A stretch of DNA of 47,216 bases from Phycisphaerae bacterium (GTDB lineage Bacteria > Planctomycetota > Phycisphaerae > UBA1845 > UTPLA1), in contig JAUVGW010000002.1 in NCBI GenBank assembly GCA_030593565.1, positions 1-47,216 on the forward strand, read 5' to 3'. Positions 6,039 through 14,674 of the stretch are shown here, piece by piece. The stretch's first letter is position 1; the number at the start of each line of letters is the position of its first letter. The notes under the pieces were generated by a model. It had not been told where the DNA came from and did not search any database. It saw only the letters and a program-made list of their open reading frames with translations. Position numbers and translations under genes: made by a program.

Positions 6039-6827
6039 ATGAAGATCATCACCCTCACGACCGACTTCGGTCAAGCGGACCACTACATCGCCTGCATGAA
6101 GGGCATCATCTTCCAACTTGCGCCCGCAGCCAAGATCATCGACGTCACGCACATGCTCCAACCTCACGATGTCGTCCATGCCGCCTTCGTCCTTCGCCAG
6201 ATCTTCGACCACTTCCCGGAGGGCTCCATCCATATTGCCGTCGTCGACCCCGGCGTCGGCACGGCCCGACGGTTGCTCGCCATTTCCTATGAAGGCCAAC
6301 TCATTCTCGCACCGGACAACGGACTCGTCACACTCGTCCACCGGGACTTCGAGATGGAGGAACTCCGGGCCATCGAGAACACGCGCCTCTTCCGACCCGA
6401 AATCAGCACCACCTTCCATGGACGAGACATCCTTGCCCCGGTGGCCGGTCACCTCGCACAGGGCATGGCCATTGAAAACGTCGGCCCGACCGTCGATCAA
6501 CTCGAAATCCTCAACCTCGACGAACCGACGGCAACACCGGCCGGCGGTATCGAAGGCCAGGTCCTCTACGTCGACCGCTTTGGCAACCTCATCTCGAACA
6601 TCAGCTTAGCGGACATCGATGCCGTCGCGGGCGATGCCATCGACAACCTCAGCGTGCATGTCGGGCCGCTCCGGGTCGGCCAGCTTCACAACACCTACGC
6701 CGACATGCCCCCCGGCGAAATCGTCGCCATCATCGGCTCCACAGGCATGTTGGAAATCGCCATCAACCAGGGCAACGCCGCCGAACAACTCCGAGCCGCA
6801 CCAGGCACCGTCATCGTCGTTCGCTGA
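6039..6827 (+). CDS. SAM hydroxide adenosyltransferase (DUF62 family)
   Basis: MKIITLTTDFGQADHYIACMKG..., 'VVDPGVGTARR', 'APDNGL' signatures. Confidence 0.92.
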   Translation: MKIITLTTDFGQADHYIACMKGIIFQLAPAAKIIDVTHMLQPHDVVHAAFVLRQIFDHFPEGSIHIAVVDPGVGTARRLLAISYEGQLILAPDNGLVTLVHRDFEMEELRAIENTRLFRPEISTTFHGRDILAPVAGHLAQGMAIENVGPTVDQLEILNLDEPTATPAGGIEGQVLYVDRFGNLISNISLADIDAVAGDAIDNLSVHVGPLRVGQLHNTYADMPPGEIVAIIGSTGMLEIAINQGNAAEQLRAAPGTVIVVR

Positions 6828-7038
6828 GCCGTGTTCTGTGAGCACGACGCACCAAACCGAGCCGTGTTCTGTGAACACGGTGCACCAAACCGAGCCGTGT
6901 TCTGTGAACACGGTGCACCAAACCGAGCCGTGTTCTGTGAACACGACGCACCAAACCGAGCCGTGTTCTGTGAACACGGTGCACCAAACCGAGCCGTGTT
7001 CTGTGAACGCGGTGCACCGCCTTCACAGAAGGCGGCTG
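6826..7038 (+). repeat. REP-like palindromic array 1 (six 33-bp units ending in a converging hairpin)
   Basis: Tandem gagCCGTGTTCtgtGAACACGGtgcaccaaacc units at 6826, 6859, 6892, 6925, 6958, 6991, closed by CCGCCTTCacaGAAGGCGG. Confidence 0.9.
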
Positions 7039-7123
7039 TAAAACAAAACCCGGCTCAAACTCGCACTTTTTTTCAACAAACTTGAAAGAACCGCCCGGAA
7101 TGCGGAAACATTACAATAGAGCC
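7021..7123 (+). promoter_or_regulatory. Conserved leader/promoter-like segment copy A (upstream of ECF sigma gene)
   Basis: Aligns with 10802-10903: aaacccggctc..acTCG..c.ttttttcaa...aC.TGAAAGAACCGCCC...GCGG.AA.CA.TA.CA. Confidence 0.6.
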
Positions 7124-7744
7124 ATGCCGACCAGAACGAGCACAACCCTGCTGAACGGACTCCTCGATCCCCGTGACGACCGAGCGTGGCAGCGATTCTA
7201 CTCCCGTTACACACCAATGCTGCTGTCCTACGCCAAACGCGTCGGCCTCTCCGACGCCGATGCACAGGAGGTCGTCTCGAAAACACTGGCCACGTTCGTC
7301 CGGAAATATGCCGCCGGCCGATACGACCGCCAAAAAGGACGACTCAAGTCCTGGCTCGGCGGCATCATTCATAAGAAGATTCTCAGGCAGCGAGCCCGCC
7401 GCCCCATGGCGTCACTCGACGCAGCGCAGGGCGACGGCCGCCCCCATCTGCCCGAGCCCGCCGCGCCGGACGGCACAGACGAGGCCTTCGAACGTGAGTG
7501 GCAACTCGATATCCTCAACCAAGCCCTCATCATCCTGCGCCGAGACATCGATCCCAACACCTATCAGGCCTTCGACCTCTATGCCCTCAAGGACTGGCCC
7601 GTCAAGAAGGTCGCTGCGTTCCTCGGCATGACGCCCAACGCCGTCTACATCAGCAAGAGCCGAACGCTCGAAAAGCTTCGCGAACTCACCCAACGCCTCA
7701 TCGACGAGGAGGACGAACCGCGCCGTGCGATGCCTGAACAATGA
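7124..7744 (+). CDS. RNA polymerase sigma-70 family (ECF-type) factor
   Basis: MPTRTSTTLLNGLLDPRDDRAWQRFYSRYTPMLLSYAKRVGL (region 2) and 'KKVAAFLGMTPNAVYISKSRTLEKLREL' (region 4 HTH). Confidence 0.88.
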   Translation: MPTRTSTTLLNGLLDPRDDRAWQRFYSRYTPMLLSYAKRVGLSDADAQEVVSKTLATFVRKYAAGRYDRQKGRLKSWLGGIIHKKILRQRARRPMASLDAAQGDGRPHLPEPAAPDGTDEAFEREWQLDILNQALIILRRDIDPNTYQAFDLYALKDWPVKKVAAFLGMTPNAVYISKSRTLEKLRELTQRLIDEEDEPRRAMPEQ

Positions 7745-7976
7745 ACAACTCGAACGCCTGGCCGCCGCGCCGGACGACACCGCCAACACGAGCCCGCTCG
7801 CCCACACCCGCGGCTGCGAAGCTTGTCGACGGAAGCTCGAGCGCGTCCGAACCGACGCGACCCTCGTCGCAGACATCCGCGAACTCCGCGAGCGCCGTGC
7901 GAAGGTCAAGCCCATCCAGGACGAAATGACCGACACCGACGGCAGAATTGTCGCGCCGCCCCAACATCCGGTATGA
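7725..7976 (+). CDS. Small Cys-containing protein, possible anti-sigma-like zinc-finger remnant
   Basis: MRCLNNEQLERLAAA...HTRGCEACRRKLERV (H-x3-C-x2-C); overlaps 3' end of sigma gene. Confidence 0.55.
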   Translation: MRCLNNEQLERLAAAPDDTANTSPLAHTRGCEACRRKLERVRTDATLVADIRELRERRAKVKPIQDEMTDTDGRIVAPPQHPV

Positions 7977-8005
7977 TTGCGCAGCAAATCGGATGCGTGG
8001 GTGCC

Positions 8006-8076
8006 CCGCCCTTTGCGCAGCAAAGGGTGGGAATCCCTAGTGCGAAAATGAAAATCCCTTCTCGCACCTTCCTTGG
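8006..8076. repeat. Palindromic element upstream of kinase gene
   Basis: CCGCCCTTTGC gca GCAAAGGGTGG (8006-8030), followed by gggaatccctaGTGCGA...TCGCACC. Confidence 0.6.
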
Positions 8077-8097
8077 AGCCTGGAAAGAATCGGGAAC

Positions 8098-9801
8098 ATG
8101 GCAAAAGCCGACAAACCGCCCCCCGCAGACGCCACCCAGACCATCGGCCTCCCCACGCGCCCCCAACGACCGACCGACCCGGTCCCGCACCTGTCAGATT
8201 ATCGCTTCATCAAGGTCATCGGCCGCGGCGCATTCGGCACTGTCTGGCTAGCGGAGGAGCCGGTAGCCGGCGTCTTCCGAGCCATCAAAGTCCTGCACAC
8301 GCACGGCGCCGCGCGAATTGAACGAGAACTCGCCGGCATCCACGCCTACCAGGCCCAGGCGAAGGACCACCCGTACCTCGTCCGCATCCTGACGACCGGC
8401 CTATGCACACTGGACCTAGCGGCCGACGCCCCTGTCGGCCGAGATGGTGCGACCAGCCCCGCTCCACATTCCACACAAGCTGTCTACTACGTCATGGAGA
8501 TCGCCGACCACGCCGCCGGCGCGCAGCCACACCATCCCACCACCTACGAACCCATGACGCTCGCCACGCTCATCCGGCAAAAGGACCGCCTGCCTACCGG
8601 CGGCGTCATCGACCACGCATCGACCCTACTCGACGCCATCGACCACCTGCACAGAGCAGGCCTCCAACACCGCGACATCAAGCCGACCAACTGCCTGTTC
8701 ATCGGCGGCCTATTAAAACTCGCCGACATGGGCCTCGCCGCCTCCGACACGACGACCGAATCCATTGGCACCCCGGCCTACATGCCGCCGACGACCGACA
8801 AACCCACCGAGGCCGACCCTGCCCGCACGATCGGCCCGCAACCCGACGACCTCTACGCACTCGGCAAGGTCATGTACGTCATGACCACCGGCCAGGGGGC
8901 CGCCGACTTCCCCGACTGGCCCGCCGACCTGGACCCCACCGCCGACCCCCACCTCCCCGCCCTCCGCGAACTCATCAACGACCTCTGTCACCCGCAGGCC
9001 GAGAAACGCCTGACCAGCATCCGCGAGTTACGGCACAGACTGGCAACGTTCACTCCATTCGGCCCAAGCCCCAAAACATCTCGCCGCCGCGTGGCGTTAT
9101 TGGTCGGCCTCGTCGCCGCTGTCAGTTTCTACGCAGGGGCCTGGACGGCTACGCGGTGGCTCGAGCCGGAGGACCCGATGAGCCGGACATACGGCGTGCC
9201 ACCTTACAACGGTACGGATTATTCCGAGCACCTGGAGTGGGAACGACTCACCTACAGCTTGGGGCGCAGCCACCGACCAGGGATCACTTACACACTTCCC
9301 TGCGGCGGTACCTTCGTCACCTTCTGGGACATCCAGACCCGGCTGGAGGAGGGCCGCTTAGAAGTGAGCGGCGCTTTTCAAATCTACCAGGAGCACAGCC
9401 CCGCTCAGCGCGACATCACGAACCCGCGCGGGATCATCTGCCAGGTCTGCTTGTGTGTCGGGGATGAATTGCGATTCCTGTATCACGCGCAGCCAGGACC
9501 AAAGCCGGGCACATACCACGATTTCGGTCGTCGGGGGATGACCGGTATCTCGCTCAGTGAGCTCGCGTTCACGGAGGACGAACCGCTTACTGTCTATCTG
9601 GCTGTGTCGTCGTGCTATACACCGAGTAGCGCAGCAGAGGAATACAAGATACCCGCCAAACGAGTTGCACTACTCAAGAATGCACAGGTGATCGCCAGCG
9701 TGAGCCGGTTGCGTGCCGAGGAAGCTGCTCAGTCAGTGGCCGAGCCATCCCACGCAGCAATACCAGACAAAAACGAGTCGAAACCGCCCGGCAATGACTG
9801 A
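8098..9801 (+). CDS. Serine/threonine protein kinase with one C-terminal-side TM helix
   Basis: GRGAFGTVWLAEE, HRDIKPTNCLF, 'ADMGLA', 'GTPAYMPP'; TM VALLVGLVAAVSFYAGAW. Confidence 0.92.
   Translation: MAKADKPPPADATQTIGLPTRPQRPTDPVPHLSDYRFIKVIGRGAFGTVWLAEEPVAGVFRAIKVLHTHGAARIERELAGIHAYQAQAKDHPYLVRILTTGLCTLDLAADAPVGRDGATSPAPHSTQAVYYVMEIADHAAGAQPHHPTTYEPMTLATLIRQKDRLPTGGVIDHASTLLDAIDHLHRAGLQHRDIKPTNCLFIGGLLKLADMGLAASDTTTESIGTPAYMPPTTDKPTEADPARTIGPQPDDLYALGKVMYVMTTGQGAADFPDWPADLDPTADPHLPALRELINDLCHPQAEKRLTSIRELRHRLATFTPFGPSPKTSRRRVALLVGLVAAVSFYAGAWTATRWLEPEDPMSRTYGVPPYNGTDYSEHLEWERLTYSLGRSHRPGITYTLPCGGTFVTFWDIQTRLEEGRLEVSGAFQIYQEHSPAQRDITNPRGIICQVCLCVGDELRFLYHAQPGPKPGTYHDFGRRGMTGISLSELAFTEDEPLTVYLAVSSCYTPSSAAEEYKIPAKRVALLKNAQVIASVSRLRAEEAAQSVAEPSHAAIPDKNESKPPGND
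8417..8444 (+). repeat. Hairpin repeat TAGCGGCCGACgcccctGTCGGCCGAGA inside kinase CDS
   Basis: 28-bp identical to 23129-23156; 8-bp stem. Confidence 0.8.
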
Positions 9802-10103
9802 GCCGTGTTCTGTGAACACGAAACATCGCTTTCATAGAAAGCGGCTCGGATTACTTCGCCGCACGCCGCCGAGACGTGTTCTGTGAACACGATGCACCAA
9901 ACCGAGCCGTGTTCTGTGAACACGATGCACCAAACCGAGCCGTGTTCTGTGAACACGGTGCACCGCCTTCACAGAAGGCGGCTCGGATGGCGGCTCGGAT
10001 GGCGGCTCGGATACGTGGTATCGTCGCGTTTCACAAGACCGAGCCGTGTTCTGTGAACACGATGCACCGCCTTCACAGAAGGCGGCTCGGATGGCGGCTC
10101 GGA
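9800..10103 (+). repeat. REP-like palindromic array 2 (left flank of RAYT)
   Basis: Multiple gagCCGTGTTCTGTGAACACGG / CCGCCTTCACAGAAGGCGGctc hairpins plus ggcggctcggat tandem copies. Confidence 0.9.
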
Positions 10104-10595
10104 TTACTTCGTCGCGCGCTGGCGCTCGATGTATTCGTAGACCCGCTGGAAATACGCTTCATCCCAAACCCATTTCACACTGCCGCCGTTCGACCACCAG
10201 CGCCGCCCTTCCTCCAGAGCCCATCGCTGCCCCAGAGCTTGGCCGAGCCACACCTTAAGCCAGCGACGAACCGCATTTCCGCCGGCGTCGGCGCTGAGGA
10301 GCACATGCACGTGATCCGGCCCGCAGGCGGCGACATGATAGGTCCAACCGCCGCGCCGGCACACCTGCGGGATAACCACTTCGGCCCACAACCGTTGCTC
10401 CCGTGTGAGTTGAATCGGGGGAAACCGCATTCGGGATTGCTCGACCCGCTCCCACGATTCGATGCGCCCGAGGACCGGCTCGCCGGGCGTGTTGTGGCGC
10501 CGATCCACGGTTCCGCGCTCGTCGCCGTGCAGCCGCGTGCCGTAGGTGCCGAAGGTGATGTGATAGGCAAGAGGACGATCATTCATGTCTGACAT
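10104..10595 (-). CDS. REP-associated tyrosine transposase (RAYT, Y1/IS200-like HUH family)
   Basis: AYHITFGTYGTRLHGDERG..., CGPDHVHVLLSADAGG (HUH), AYFQRVYEYIERQ; flanked on both sides by REP-like hairpins. Confidence 0.88.
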   Translation of the reverse strand: MSDMNDRPLAYHITFGTYGTRLHGDERGTVDRRHNTPGEPVLGRIESWERVEQSRMRFPPIQLTREQRLWAEVVIPQVCRRGGWTYHVAACGPDHVHVLLSADAGGNAVRRWLKVWLGQALGQRWALEEGRRWWSNGGSVKWVWDEAYFQRVYEYIERQRATK

Positions 10596-10618
10596 CGTAT
10601 CGTCAACGCTCAATTCCA

Positions 10619-10818
10619 CAAGACTGAGCCGTGTTCTATGAAAACGGTGCACCAAACCGAGCCGTGTTCTGTGAACACGGTGCACCGCTTTCACAGAAAG
10701 CGGCTCGGATACGTGGTATCGTCGCGTTTCACAAGACTGAGCCGTGTTCTGTGAACACGGTGCAACAAACCGAGCCGTGTTCTGTGAACACGGTGCACCG
10801 CCTTCACAGAAGGCGGCT
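10619..10818 (+). repeat. REP-like palindromic array 3 (right flank of RAYT)
   Basis: Same hairpin units as arrays 1 and 2; shares 'cggctcggatacgtggtatcgtcgcgtttcacaagac' with array 2. Confidence 0.9.
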
Positions 10819-10903
10819 CTGGAAAAAGAAACCCGGCTCGGATTCGTGCCTATTTTTCAAAACACCTGAAAGAACCGCCCCACTCGCGGGAATCAGTAAC
10901 AGA
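10802..10903 (+). promoter_or_regulatory. Conserved leader/promoter-like segment copy B (upstream of LuxR-HTH gene)
   Basis: Alignable with 7021-7116 including CTGAAAGAACCGCCC block. Confidence 0.6.
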
Positions 10904-11465: not shown

Positions 11466-12074
11466 ATGAAACAGTTGTTCTTACTTGCTGCGCTCATCAC
11501 TGTTCTCTCGGGACTGATGAGTGGAATGGCGCTGGCTGATGACTACCCCATTGGCCCAGCACTTGAAACCTTGGCTGTGCCTTTCACAATCAGCGGTGCG
11601 CACTCAACACTTGAATTGCAGGACGGTGTTCGCTATTGGCTGCTGGCTGAGGGAGTCGTTTCAGCAGGGCACGCGGGGCAGCAGAGCGATGCCGAATGGT
11701 GGAGCTACCCTCCCGGCTCCCCTTGGGAAGAAGAAGCCGATTGGTCTGGCTATCCGCCTCACTCAATGGATCTCATAGTGGACGAGATCGGCTATGACTG
11801 GTGGGGCTCAGGACTCACAGACCCAGTTCCCCTAGACGATTTCGACACCTTTGCCCCCCACGTGTTCAGTCCCAGCCACAAGTACTGGGTTCCTATTTGG
11901 GGCGACGGAACGACCATCCATCTTCGCATTGTGGATCACCCCTCGCACTATCATGACAACAGTGGATCGCTTGCGGTCGGTATCTACACCCCCGAACCTG
12001 CTACGCTTTCGCTGCTGGCCCTCGGCGGTCTGGCGATGTTCCGGCGACGGCGGCGTGTTCGTGTTGGGTGCTGA
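11466..12074 (+). CDS. PEP-CTERM sorting domain protein
   Basis: Signal peptide MKQLFLLAALITVLSGLMSGMALA and C-terminus TPEPATLSLLALGGLAMFRRRRR. Confidence 0.88.
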   Translation: MKQLFLLAALITVLSGLMSGMALADDYPIGPALETLAVPFTISGAHSTLELQDGVRYWLLAEGVVSAGHAGQQSDAEWWSYPPGSPWEEEADWSGYPPHSMDLIVDEIGYDWWGSGLTDPVPLDDFDTFAPHVFSPSHKYWVPIWGDGTTIHLRIVDHPSHYHDNSGSLAVGIYTPEPATLSLLALGGLAMFRRRRRVRVGC

Positions 12075-12445: not shown

Positions 12446-14674
12446 TTACCCAATCAGAGTCGCGGCCGTGAACAGACTGCCCACCTGGTACACCATGACC
12501 GTCAACACGTACGCCAACAGGGTCAAGCCGCCCAACTGAAACAGAGCCCACATCCATGAGTTGCTTTCCCGTTTGGTGATCGCGACCGTCGCCATGCAGG
12601 GAGCGCTGACCAGACAGAACAGCATGATGCAGAACGCCTGCAGGGGCGTGTAACTTTCACGTAGCCGCCGGCGCAGCGAATCCGATTCCTCGTCGGCTTC
12701 CCCCACGGAGAAGACGATGCCCATTTGCGCAACAAACACCTCCTTGGCGGCGAACGCGCCGATGAGGGCCGTCCCGATCTTCCAGTCGAATCCCATGGGC
12801 TTCAGGACAGGCTCGATGCCGTGCCCGATCCGGCCCGCCACCGTGTAGGCCAACGCCTCCGCCTGCCGCGCCTGTCGTGCCTCCTTGATCCGCTCACCGA
12901 ACGCTTCACTGTCCGCCGCGTGCATCGCCTCTGCCGGTAGACCGGGCGGAGGACCGCCCGGCTCGCTGGCTATCTCCGCATCGTAGTCACGATCGAACAC
13001 CGTCTTCTTCGGGTAACTAGTCAGAGCCCACAGAATGATCGAGAGGGCGAGGATGATCGTGCCCGCCTTTCTGAGATAGAGCCAAGCCCGGCCGCCGGTG
13101 TGAAGGAACAGGCTTTTCAGTGTCGGCGCGCGATACGGGGGAAGCTCCATCACGAAAGGCGGCGAGTCTCCCTTTAGGATCGTCGTCTTTAGCACCTTCG
13201 CGCTGACGACCGCCAACGCGAGGCCCGTCAGGTAGATGGTCAGGAGCATGGGCGCCTGCCATGCCTCCGCGAAGAAGGCCGGAATAATCAGCGCGTAAAT
13301 CGGAAGACGGGCGCCGCAGCTCATCAGCGGCACGACCAGCATCGTCGTCAGCCTGTCTCGCCTGTTTTCAATGGTGCGTGTGGCCATGATGGCCGGAACG
13401 GAGCAGCCGAATCCAATCAACATCGGGATGAAGCTTTTTCCGTGCAGCCCAATCTTGTGCATGAGCCGGTCCATGATGAACGCCGCCCTGGCCATGTAGC
13501 CGGAGTCTTCCAGCACGGTGATAGCCAGAAACAGAAGCACGATATTGGGCAGAAACACGACGACGCCCCCGACGCCGCCGATGACGCCGTCCACCAGGAG
13601 CGATCGCAGGGCGCTGTCCGCTCCCTCGGCCCACAATGAGGAGACCGCCCGGCCGAGCCAGTTGAAGAAGCTCTCGATCCAGCCCATGGGGGGATCACCC
13701 AGCGTGAAGGTGAGGTAAAAAACGAGGTACATCAGGCCGAAGAAGATCGGCAGGCCCAGGACTCGGTTCGTGATGACCGCGTCGATCTGGTCGGACATCG
13801 TGTGGCGCGCTTCGGCGGTCAAGCGAACCGTTTCGGTGCAGGCGCCGCTGATGAAGCCGTATCGTTGATCCGCGATCACCACCTCGGACGGGTGGCCATA
13901 TAGCTTCTCCAGGTAATCCTCACTCTTTTTTACCGCGTCGAGGATCTTCCGGGAGCTGACCTTCTGCTGCACGTCTTCGTCATTCTCCAGCAGCTTGATC
14001 GCAGCCCATCGACGTTGGTAGGTTTCCGGCGCGTGGCCGTCGGCCACGATCAACTCCGAGATTCTCGTGATCTCGTCCTCGAGCTCCTCTCCATAGTTGA
14101 CGTGTACCGCCTCGGGCGGTCCCTCGGCCGCCTTTGCGACGATCGCGTCCAGGAGATCCGTGGTTCCCATGTTCTTGTGGCCGACCATCGGAACGATGGG
14201 CGTCCTGAGCAATCCGGACAGCGCCTCGATGTCGAACTCGATTCCGCGCGCTTCCGCCACGTCACACATGTTGAGCGCCAATACCAGCGGCGCGTCCATC
14301 TCCATGAATTGTGTCGCGAGATACAGGTTTCGCTCGACGTTCGAGGCATCGAGGATGGCGACAACAACGTCGGGCTTCCCGTTGATGATGAAGTCCCGCG
14401 CCACCATCTCCTCCACCGAGTGTGCTGTCAGGCTGTAGATGCCCGGCAGATCGATGAATTCCATCCGTGTGCCACGATGATCGCAGGTGCCGCTCTTTTT
14501 CTCGACGGTGACACCCGGGTAGTTGCCGACATGTTGCCGCGCGCCGGTGATGTTGTTGAAGACCGTGGTCTTGCCGGCGTTCGGGTTGCCCGCAATCGCC
14601 ACCGTGAGCATCCGTCGAGCGTGGGTTCGACCGCTCCCAACCGTTTGTTCGGCCTGACGCATAATGTTCGGCAA
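12446..14674 (-). CDS. feoB: Ferrous iron transport protein B
   Basis: GNPNAGKTTVFNNITGARQHVGNYPGVTVEKK, DLPGIYSL, FeoB gate and C-terminal membrane domains. Confidence 0.97.
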   Translation of the reverse strand: MPNIMRQAEQTVGSGRTHARRMLTVAIAGNPNAGKTTVFNNITGARQHVGNYPGVTVEKKSGTCDHRGTRMEFIDLPGIYSLTAHSVEEMVARDFIINGKPDVVVAILDASNVERNLYLATQFMEMDAPLVLALNMCDVAEARGIEFDIEALSGLLRTPIVPMVGHKNMGTTDLLDAIVAKAAEGPPEAVHVNYGEELEDEITRISELIVADGHAPETYQRRWAAIKLLENDEDVQQKVSSRKILDAVKKSEDYLEKLYGHPSEVVIADQRYGFISGACTETVRLTAEARHTMSDQIDAVITNRVLGLPIFFGLMYLVFYLTFTLGDPPMGWIESFFNWLGRAVSSLWAEGADSALRSLLVDGVIGGVGGVVVFLPNIVLLFLAITVLEDSGYMARAAFIMDRLMHKIGLHGKSFIPMLIGFGCSVPAIMATRTIENRRDRLTTMLVVPLMSCGARLPIYALIIPAFFAEAWQAPMLLTIYLTGLALAVVSAKVLKTTILKGDSPPFVMELPPYRAPTLKSLFLHTGGRAWLYLRKAGTIILALSIILWALTSYPKKTVFDRDYDAEIASEPGGPPPGLPAEAMHAADSEAFGERIKEARQARQAEALAYTVAGRIGHGIEPVLKPMGFDWKIGTALIGAFAAKEVFVAQMGIVFSVGEADEESDSLRRRLRESYTPLQAFCIMLFCLVSAPCMATVAITKRESNSWMWALFQLGGLTLLAYVLTVMVYQVGSLFTAATLIG

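Follow-up and report, generated by a model that had tools for sequence, protein, structure and literature searches.

A probable REPtron in a Phycisphaerae genome: a class-3-related TnpA_Y1 transposase among GAG-footed hairpins whose genome-wide copies lie mostly in MITE-like elements

The window, that is, the whole stretch of 47,216 nucleotides analysed here, is contig C143 of the genome designated G000, a 5.15-Mb draft in 461 contigs estimated to be 87% complete. An intact ORF on its minus strand (10104-10595) encodes a RAYT-like HUH/Y1 transposase of 163 amino acids, with the HUH motif DHVH (within DHVHVLL) at 10305-10316 and the catalytic Tyr155, within the C-terminal YIERQR, at 10131-10133, both on the same strand. 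A preliminary description of this DNA had recognized the Y1/HUH transposase by its HVHVLL motif; the ORF proved to be intact and to carry the tyrosine. H95, H97, and Y155 were invariant in an alignment of six homologues. The window protein scored 18 bits (E=0.0033) with Pfam Y1_Tnp and 16.6 bits with NCBIfam IS200, both under the cut-off, so naming it by family profiles alone would fail, and a search of solved structures with its sequence returned weak matches only (E 0.13). An AlphaFold model was built from the six homologues (mean pLDDT of 80; residues 23-44 unreliable) and compared using Foldseek, for which the top match was ISDra2 TnpA (E=1.5e-5); the IS608 transposase and E. coli TnpA_REP (4ER8, E=5e-3) were also matched, the latter with only about 14% identity in the structural alignment. 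The fold of the modelled transposase is IS200-like. The gene is single-copy in G000, where its paralogs are 48% and 35% identical and PF01797 has about a dozen distinct matches to Y1 transposases of several subfamilies (C63, C9, C79, C381, C438, C377, C146, and others).

Hairpins of the format GAG-CCGnnTTC-TGT-GAAnnCGG surround the gene. Allowing up to 3 mismatches, GAGCCGNNTTCTGTGAANNCGG was found 21 times in the window, against a shuffle mean of 0.07 and a shuffle maximum of 1, with seven hairpins at 6826-7038, eight at 9800-10088, and six at 10626-10819; the arrays that had been described as bracketing the transposase ORF are far in excess of expectation. The foot region reads CCGAG, CTGAG, or CAGAG, and tandem hairpins are spaced at a 33-nt period. 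On the downstream side, the transposase stop codon directly adjoins a hairpin, and a head-to-head pair of the TG/CA and CC/GG versions (10041-10088) abuts the 3' end of the gene. Beyond it lie three TG/CA hairpins at the 33-nt period and, facing them across TGCA, an inverted CC/GG hairpin (9871-9984), and then the remnant of a second gene end (9841-9871), which comprises a hairpin edge and the last transposase codons and is identical to 10094-10124 at 27 of 31 positions; this decayed copy is adjoined by a degenerate pair of TG/CA and CT/AG hairpins (9800-9847). On the upstream side there are two arrays, each with two TG/CA hairpins and one inverted hairpin, which is CT/AG in the first (10626-10706) and CC/GG in the second (10739-10819). 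A separate array, 2.8 kb from the gene, consists of six TG/CA hairpins at the 33-nt period and an inverted CC/GG hairpin (6826-7038). The opposition of TG/CA and CC/GG versions across a TGCA centre, also part of the preliminary description, was found in three pairs, at 9937-9984, 10041-10088 (with one change), and 10772-10819; in the pair at 10659-10706 the partner is the CT/AG version. From reading of the ORFs, the interval between the arrays (7082-9801) holds two ORFs that adjoin the transposase locus, one sigma-factor-like and the next resembling a serine/threonine kinase, and on the other side lie a protein with a PEP-CTERM-like tail (11466-12074) and a FeoB-like GTPase transporter (12446-14674).

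Three general features of a RAYT/REPtron were found, namely an HUH motif with a single catalytic Tyr, inverted REP pairs both flanking the gene and dispersed, and a low-copy gene. Some of the evidence is shared with IS200/IS605 TnpA proteins (ISDra2, IS608), which have the HUH/Y1 fold, a Y---Q motif, and a hairpin with a 5' guide tetranucleotide, and the locus might be read as an ordinary insertion sequence of that type, with the hairpins as its ends and the gene moving as a unit. ISDra2 and IS608 TnpA are the best structural matches, the Y---Q motif resembles that of class 1 (PMC6006769), and the decayed second gene 3' end would suit such an element. This reading is nevertheless improbable, since the gene is single-copy, its nearest paralog (48% identical) has hairpins of its own, and no tnpB is present among the ORFs listed round the gene; unlike in IS200/IS605 elements, there is here no mobile unit containing the gene, and the hairpins are arrayed and also dispersed without it.

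A profile scan of GTDB genomes identified 22 homologous loci, all from Planctomycetota by record title and mostly from Phycisphaerae. The hairpins beside the homologues follow the format [C/G]nGAG-CCG-N5-(TGT or TCCC/TCCT)-N5'-CGG, based on 70 hairpins at 21 loci, a set to which the family search contributed; part of that contribution (L102) shares its assembly with L129. All 70 have an NGAG foot, in a collection that was seeded on GAGC, and the consensus is descriptive, as the hairpins tested near the homologues were those from which it was drawn. Position -5 was C in 40 and G in 27 of the 70. Hairpin density near homologue genes exceeded that in distal DNA by a factor of about 25, and the GAGC foot was present in 39/54 hairpins near the gene versus 8/68 distal ones (p=7e-12). 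Among 20 distinct hairpins, 96.9% of stem cells were paired, compared with 67% in shuffles; two-sided changes occurred at 6 of the 8 stem pairs, with the outer CCG/CGG nearly invariant, and the covariation score was 0.746, compared with 0.189 for shuffled and at most 0.114 for slid alignments. Both the association with the transposase and this hairpin grammar are direct observations, and the GAG foot in place of GTAG, first noted in the window, is conserved across the Planctomycetota homologues. The 48%-identical paralog of G000 (C17) has its own hairpin version, GGTCG-TCCC, and the inner stem and loop at L120 read GATTC-TGT; since these differ while the foot is the same, comparison of the hairpins indicates that foot and stem base are shared and that inner stem and loop go with the transposase.

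Within the family (17 genomes), the exact hairpin TTCTGTGAA was found in G000 (100 copies) and otherwise only once, in G008. A covariance model of the hairpin (R1) had matches in 13 of the 114 genomes of the order, comprising 5/7 genomes that bear the transposase clade and 8/107 others. This presence/absence correlation was rejected as a test, because the model had been trained on gene-adjacent hairpins, and matches of one to four per genome probably include these. In G027, G028, and G060, no transposase of the window clade was detected, even by a relaxed search, and R1 matches numbered 56, 53, and 15, respectively; the hairpins of these genomes (L242-L258) are real, dispersed, and of the same format, and the assemblies are about 84% complete and fragmented. 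Such populations weaken any simple rule that the repeats follow the gene. The proposed test of co-occurrence between repeat and RAYT clade had a mixed outcome: the exact hairpin is nearly private to G000 in its family, but related hairpins are abundant in three genomes without a detectable clade transposase. The same three genomes speak for a fixed regulatory or structural role of the hairpins, as palindromes that serve as terminators, mRNA ends, or sites for host proteins, with the transposase lying among them by chance or as a passenger. This view is considered unlikely, since at most homologous loci the gene has the inverted format on both sides, at the raised density given above, and the unpaired GAG foot is invariant, although a terminator needs none; in addition, the gene may simply be missing from the G027 and G028 assemblies.

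The genome-wide count called for in the preliminary description gave 100 exact hairpin copies in G000 and 0 of the reversed pattern, which shows that the hairpin is not confined to the three loci of the window. Many contigs end in MITE or hairpin repeats, so these copy numbers are lower bounds. Of the 100 copies, a family termed MITE B accounts for 57, MITE C for 15, and MITE-like D for 6, and, of the rest, 12 are in the window and 10 are spread over seven loci elsewhere; dispersed hairpin loci outside MITEs were located on C65, C102, C234, C284, C301, C303, and C421. MITE B is 225 nt long and has the ends CAGGGCAATCGCAAGAAT and ATTCTTGCGATTGCCCTG, with target duplications of 10 bp seen at 12 of 15 copies; it was found at C290:3160-3384 and in about 35 further places in G000. 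It carries two CC/GG hairpins in inverted arrangement, and the inner 23 nt are found in both orientations with respect to its ends. Copies of MITE-like D are found at the ends of contigs C25, C166, and C174. With about 78 of the 100 exact copies inside these three MITE-like families, the high copy number of the hairpin is mostly hitch-hiking. The hairpin count was accordingly rejected as a direct measure of RAYT activity, for which the count first suggested would have been misleading, and the case illustrates that unrelated MITEs can drive REP copy number and confound the use of REP counts for this purpose. The same figure could be taken to mean that the hairpins belong to the MITEs and that the transposase region received MITE fragments, but this is highly improbable: the window arrays lack MITE terminal repeats, the three unrelated MITE families have only the hairpin in common, MITE C exists without it, and in other genomes this format is again found adjacent to the homologous gene.

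REP mobility has so far been inferred mostly from association and from in vitro cutting. In G000, MITE C (about 100 nt, with a TA-type target) occurs in three states, namely 100 nt and empty, 131 nt with a 31-nt REP, and 129 nt with another hairpin near the same place (C254:3164-3297, C195:1878-1980, C387:6263-6392, and others). Empty copies read GTGCCGC|TTGGC, and filled copies read GTGCCGC-CCTCGGAG-CCGGGTTCTGTGAACCCGG-TGAA-TTGGC, with TGCA in some copies. The insert is exactly 31 nt, its joint is unambiguous, and it lies between C and T (GCCGC|TTGG) without target duplication. Within one genome, a 100-nt element with and without its insert thus delimits the REP unit to single-base precision and locates it at a C|T, the dinucleotide that TnpA_REP enzymes cut. 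The 129-nt type was left out of the insertion analysis, as it is not a clean single insertion. Known TnpA_REP enzymes cleave at C|T, a choice proposed to be made by A3G4 of GTAG (PMC8266576), and the GAG foot of the window ends in AG, as GTAG does. The position of the MITE C insertion is as predicted from such cleavage and is an indirect sign that the transposase may cut and join its REP; with a chance of about 1 in 16 that one site is CT, a C|T in one MITE family is consistent with the prediction and is not proof of it.

Hairpin-bearing copies of MITE C did not form one clade on trees of the flanks (AU p=0.011). Among copies of the element, the hairpin differs by 2%, compared with 9-36% for most of the remaining element and 20-35% for parts of the flanks; the hairpin is matched in conservation by a 24-nt block, on which the search was anchored, and by 5 nt adjoining the insert. 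The low divergence of the hairpin is what would be expected of a fixed palindrome under constraint, but the existence of empty copies argues that the hairpin is a removable 31-nt unit. A two-stage history, in which the transposase seeded a single C|T of MITE C with the hairpin on repeated occasions and the DDE-type MITEs then amplified the REP, is put forward tentatively as one possible account; the pattern could also have arisen by gene conversion among the MITE copies, by precise loss, or through constraint on the hairpin.

Among known systems, the locus is closest to TnpA_Y1 class 3, which Quentin and colleagues (PMC6006769) defined mostly on planctomycete proteins and for which they described a CnGA foot and surroundings resembling a REPtron; a literature search for class 3 beyond that paper returned nothing relevant. 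Shared with class 3 are the mainly planctomycete distribution, the N-terminal extension LAYxxTFxTYGTxLHGDxRGSVDR, gene-flanking hairpins with a 5' CnGA foot (present in the window copies as CCGA, CTGA, or CAGA followed by G), dispersed hairpins, and a Q-type tyrosine motif. The window clade differs in having mostly DHVH in place of NHVH, W[SA] (WW[AS]xGGS) in place of W[TA], YIxxQR (YI[EA][RK]Q, Y---Q) in place of YV[VI][AENY]EQ (Y----Q), and a foot that also allows GnGAG. On the tree, from which the published class 3 sequences were absent and for which the root was not inferred, the window clade formed its own branch (SH-aLRT 99) beside proteins with class 3 motifs. Given the different motifs and the separate branch on such a tree, the window transposase is best described as a putative class-3-related REPtron variant rather than a proven class 3 member. 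Genes with class 3 motifs from the same order, L104 and L269, also have CnGAG-CCG hairpins, and the foot is therefore wider than the window clade. The distinct RAYT/REP specificity suggested initially was upheld with regard to the non-GTAG foot and is not new, as the CnGA foot of class 3 precedes it; what is new here is a clade with its own tyrosine motif, YIxxQR. The clade extends a class known from few sequences and provides more than 20 transposase-hairpin pairs for work on specificity.

With the classical RAYT/TnpA_REP groups 2 and 3 of E. coli and Stenotrophomonas (PMC2817692, PMC8266576), the window shares a single gene amid inverted REP pairs, an 8-bp stem with a 3-nt loop (as in REP_Sm), a foot ending in AG, and the C|T insertion site; these groups have a GT[AG]G foot and a YxxxNP tyrosine motif, whereas the window clade has NGAG and the window protein YIERQR. 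Dispersed palindromes near tyrosine transposases, dimers, and clusters are also known from TIRtrons and the GTAG/CGTC repeat families (PMC3733652), but neither a GTAG nor a CGTC tag is present here.

The locus is most probably a REPtron, in which a domesticated-looking TnpA_Y1 related to class 3 is accompanied by its own flanking REPs, and in which the hairpin would be bound, cut at C|T, and joined elsewhere, most copies having been multiplied by MITEs. Binding is most likely to the hairpin as folded single-stranded DNA, with the protein recognizing three features: [C/G]nGAG as the unpaired foot, CCG/CGG at the base of the stem, and TGT in the loop. We infer that Tyr155 cuts at a nearby C|T, guided by base pairing of CT with the AG that ends the foot, and that the hairpin may then be joined to another C|T without target duplication. 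Once hairpins had landed in MITEs, other transposases would have multiplied most of the copies now present in G000.

Essential genes of several genomes in the same order were observed to contain class-3-like HUH transposases in frame, with open frames and HUH and tyrosine motifs that look intact. A literature search on transposases inside alanyl-tRNA synthetase returned nothing relevant. Insertions in this gene were seen at L094/L277 (G015:C57:121172-123541), L095/L282 (G005:C34), L103 (G008:C804), L220 (G103:C491), L228/L280 (G098:C54), and L227/L278 (G037:C11), with no stop and at about position 263-266 or about position 379 of the tRNA-synt_2c profile; the inserted domain is flanked by the REP-like peptides PSRDRKGA and PLPYGRGSV. 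In G015 and G005, the transposase-bearing alaS was the only alaS found, with Pfam tRNA-synt_2c split and Y1_Tnp between, and in G037 two transposases lie in one alaS ORF of 1686 amino acids. PurH of G010 contains a transposase in frame (L099/L281, G010:C1:459980; AICARFT/IMPCHase by Pfam), and a similar ORF is present in G011 (L114, G011:C1:1897292); both are single-contig genomes, so an artefact of contig joining is unlikely. A class I tRNA synthetase with an in-frame transposase was found at L233 (G046:C4:138089). The alanyl-tRNA synthetase of G000 itself (L292, G000:C185:18893-20371) has a low-complexity, hairpin-bearing insertion of about 48 amino acids in the same place, without a transposase.
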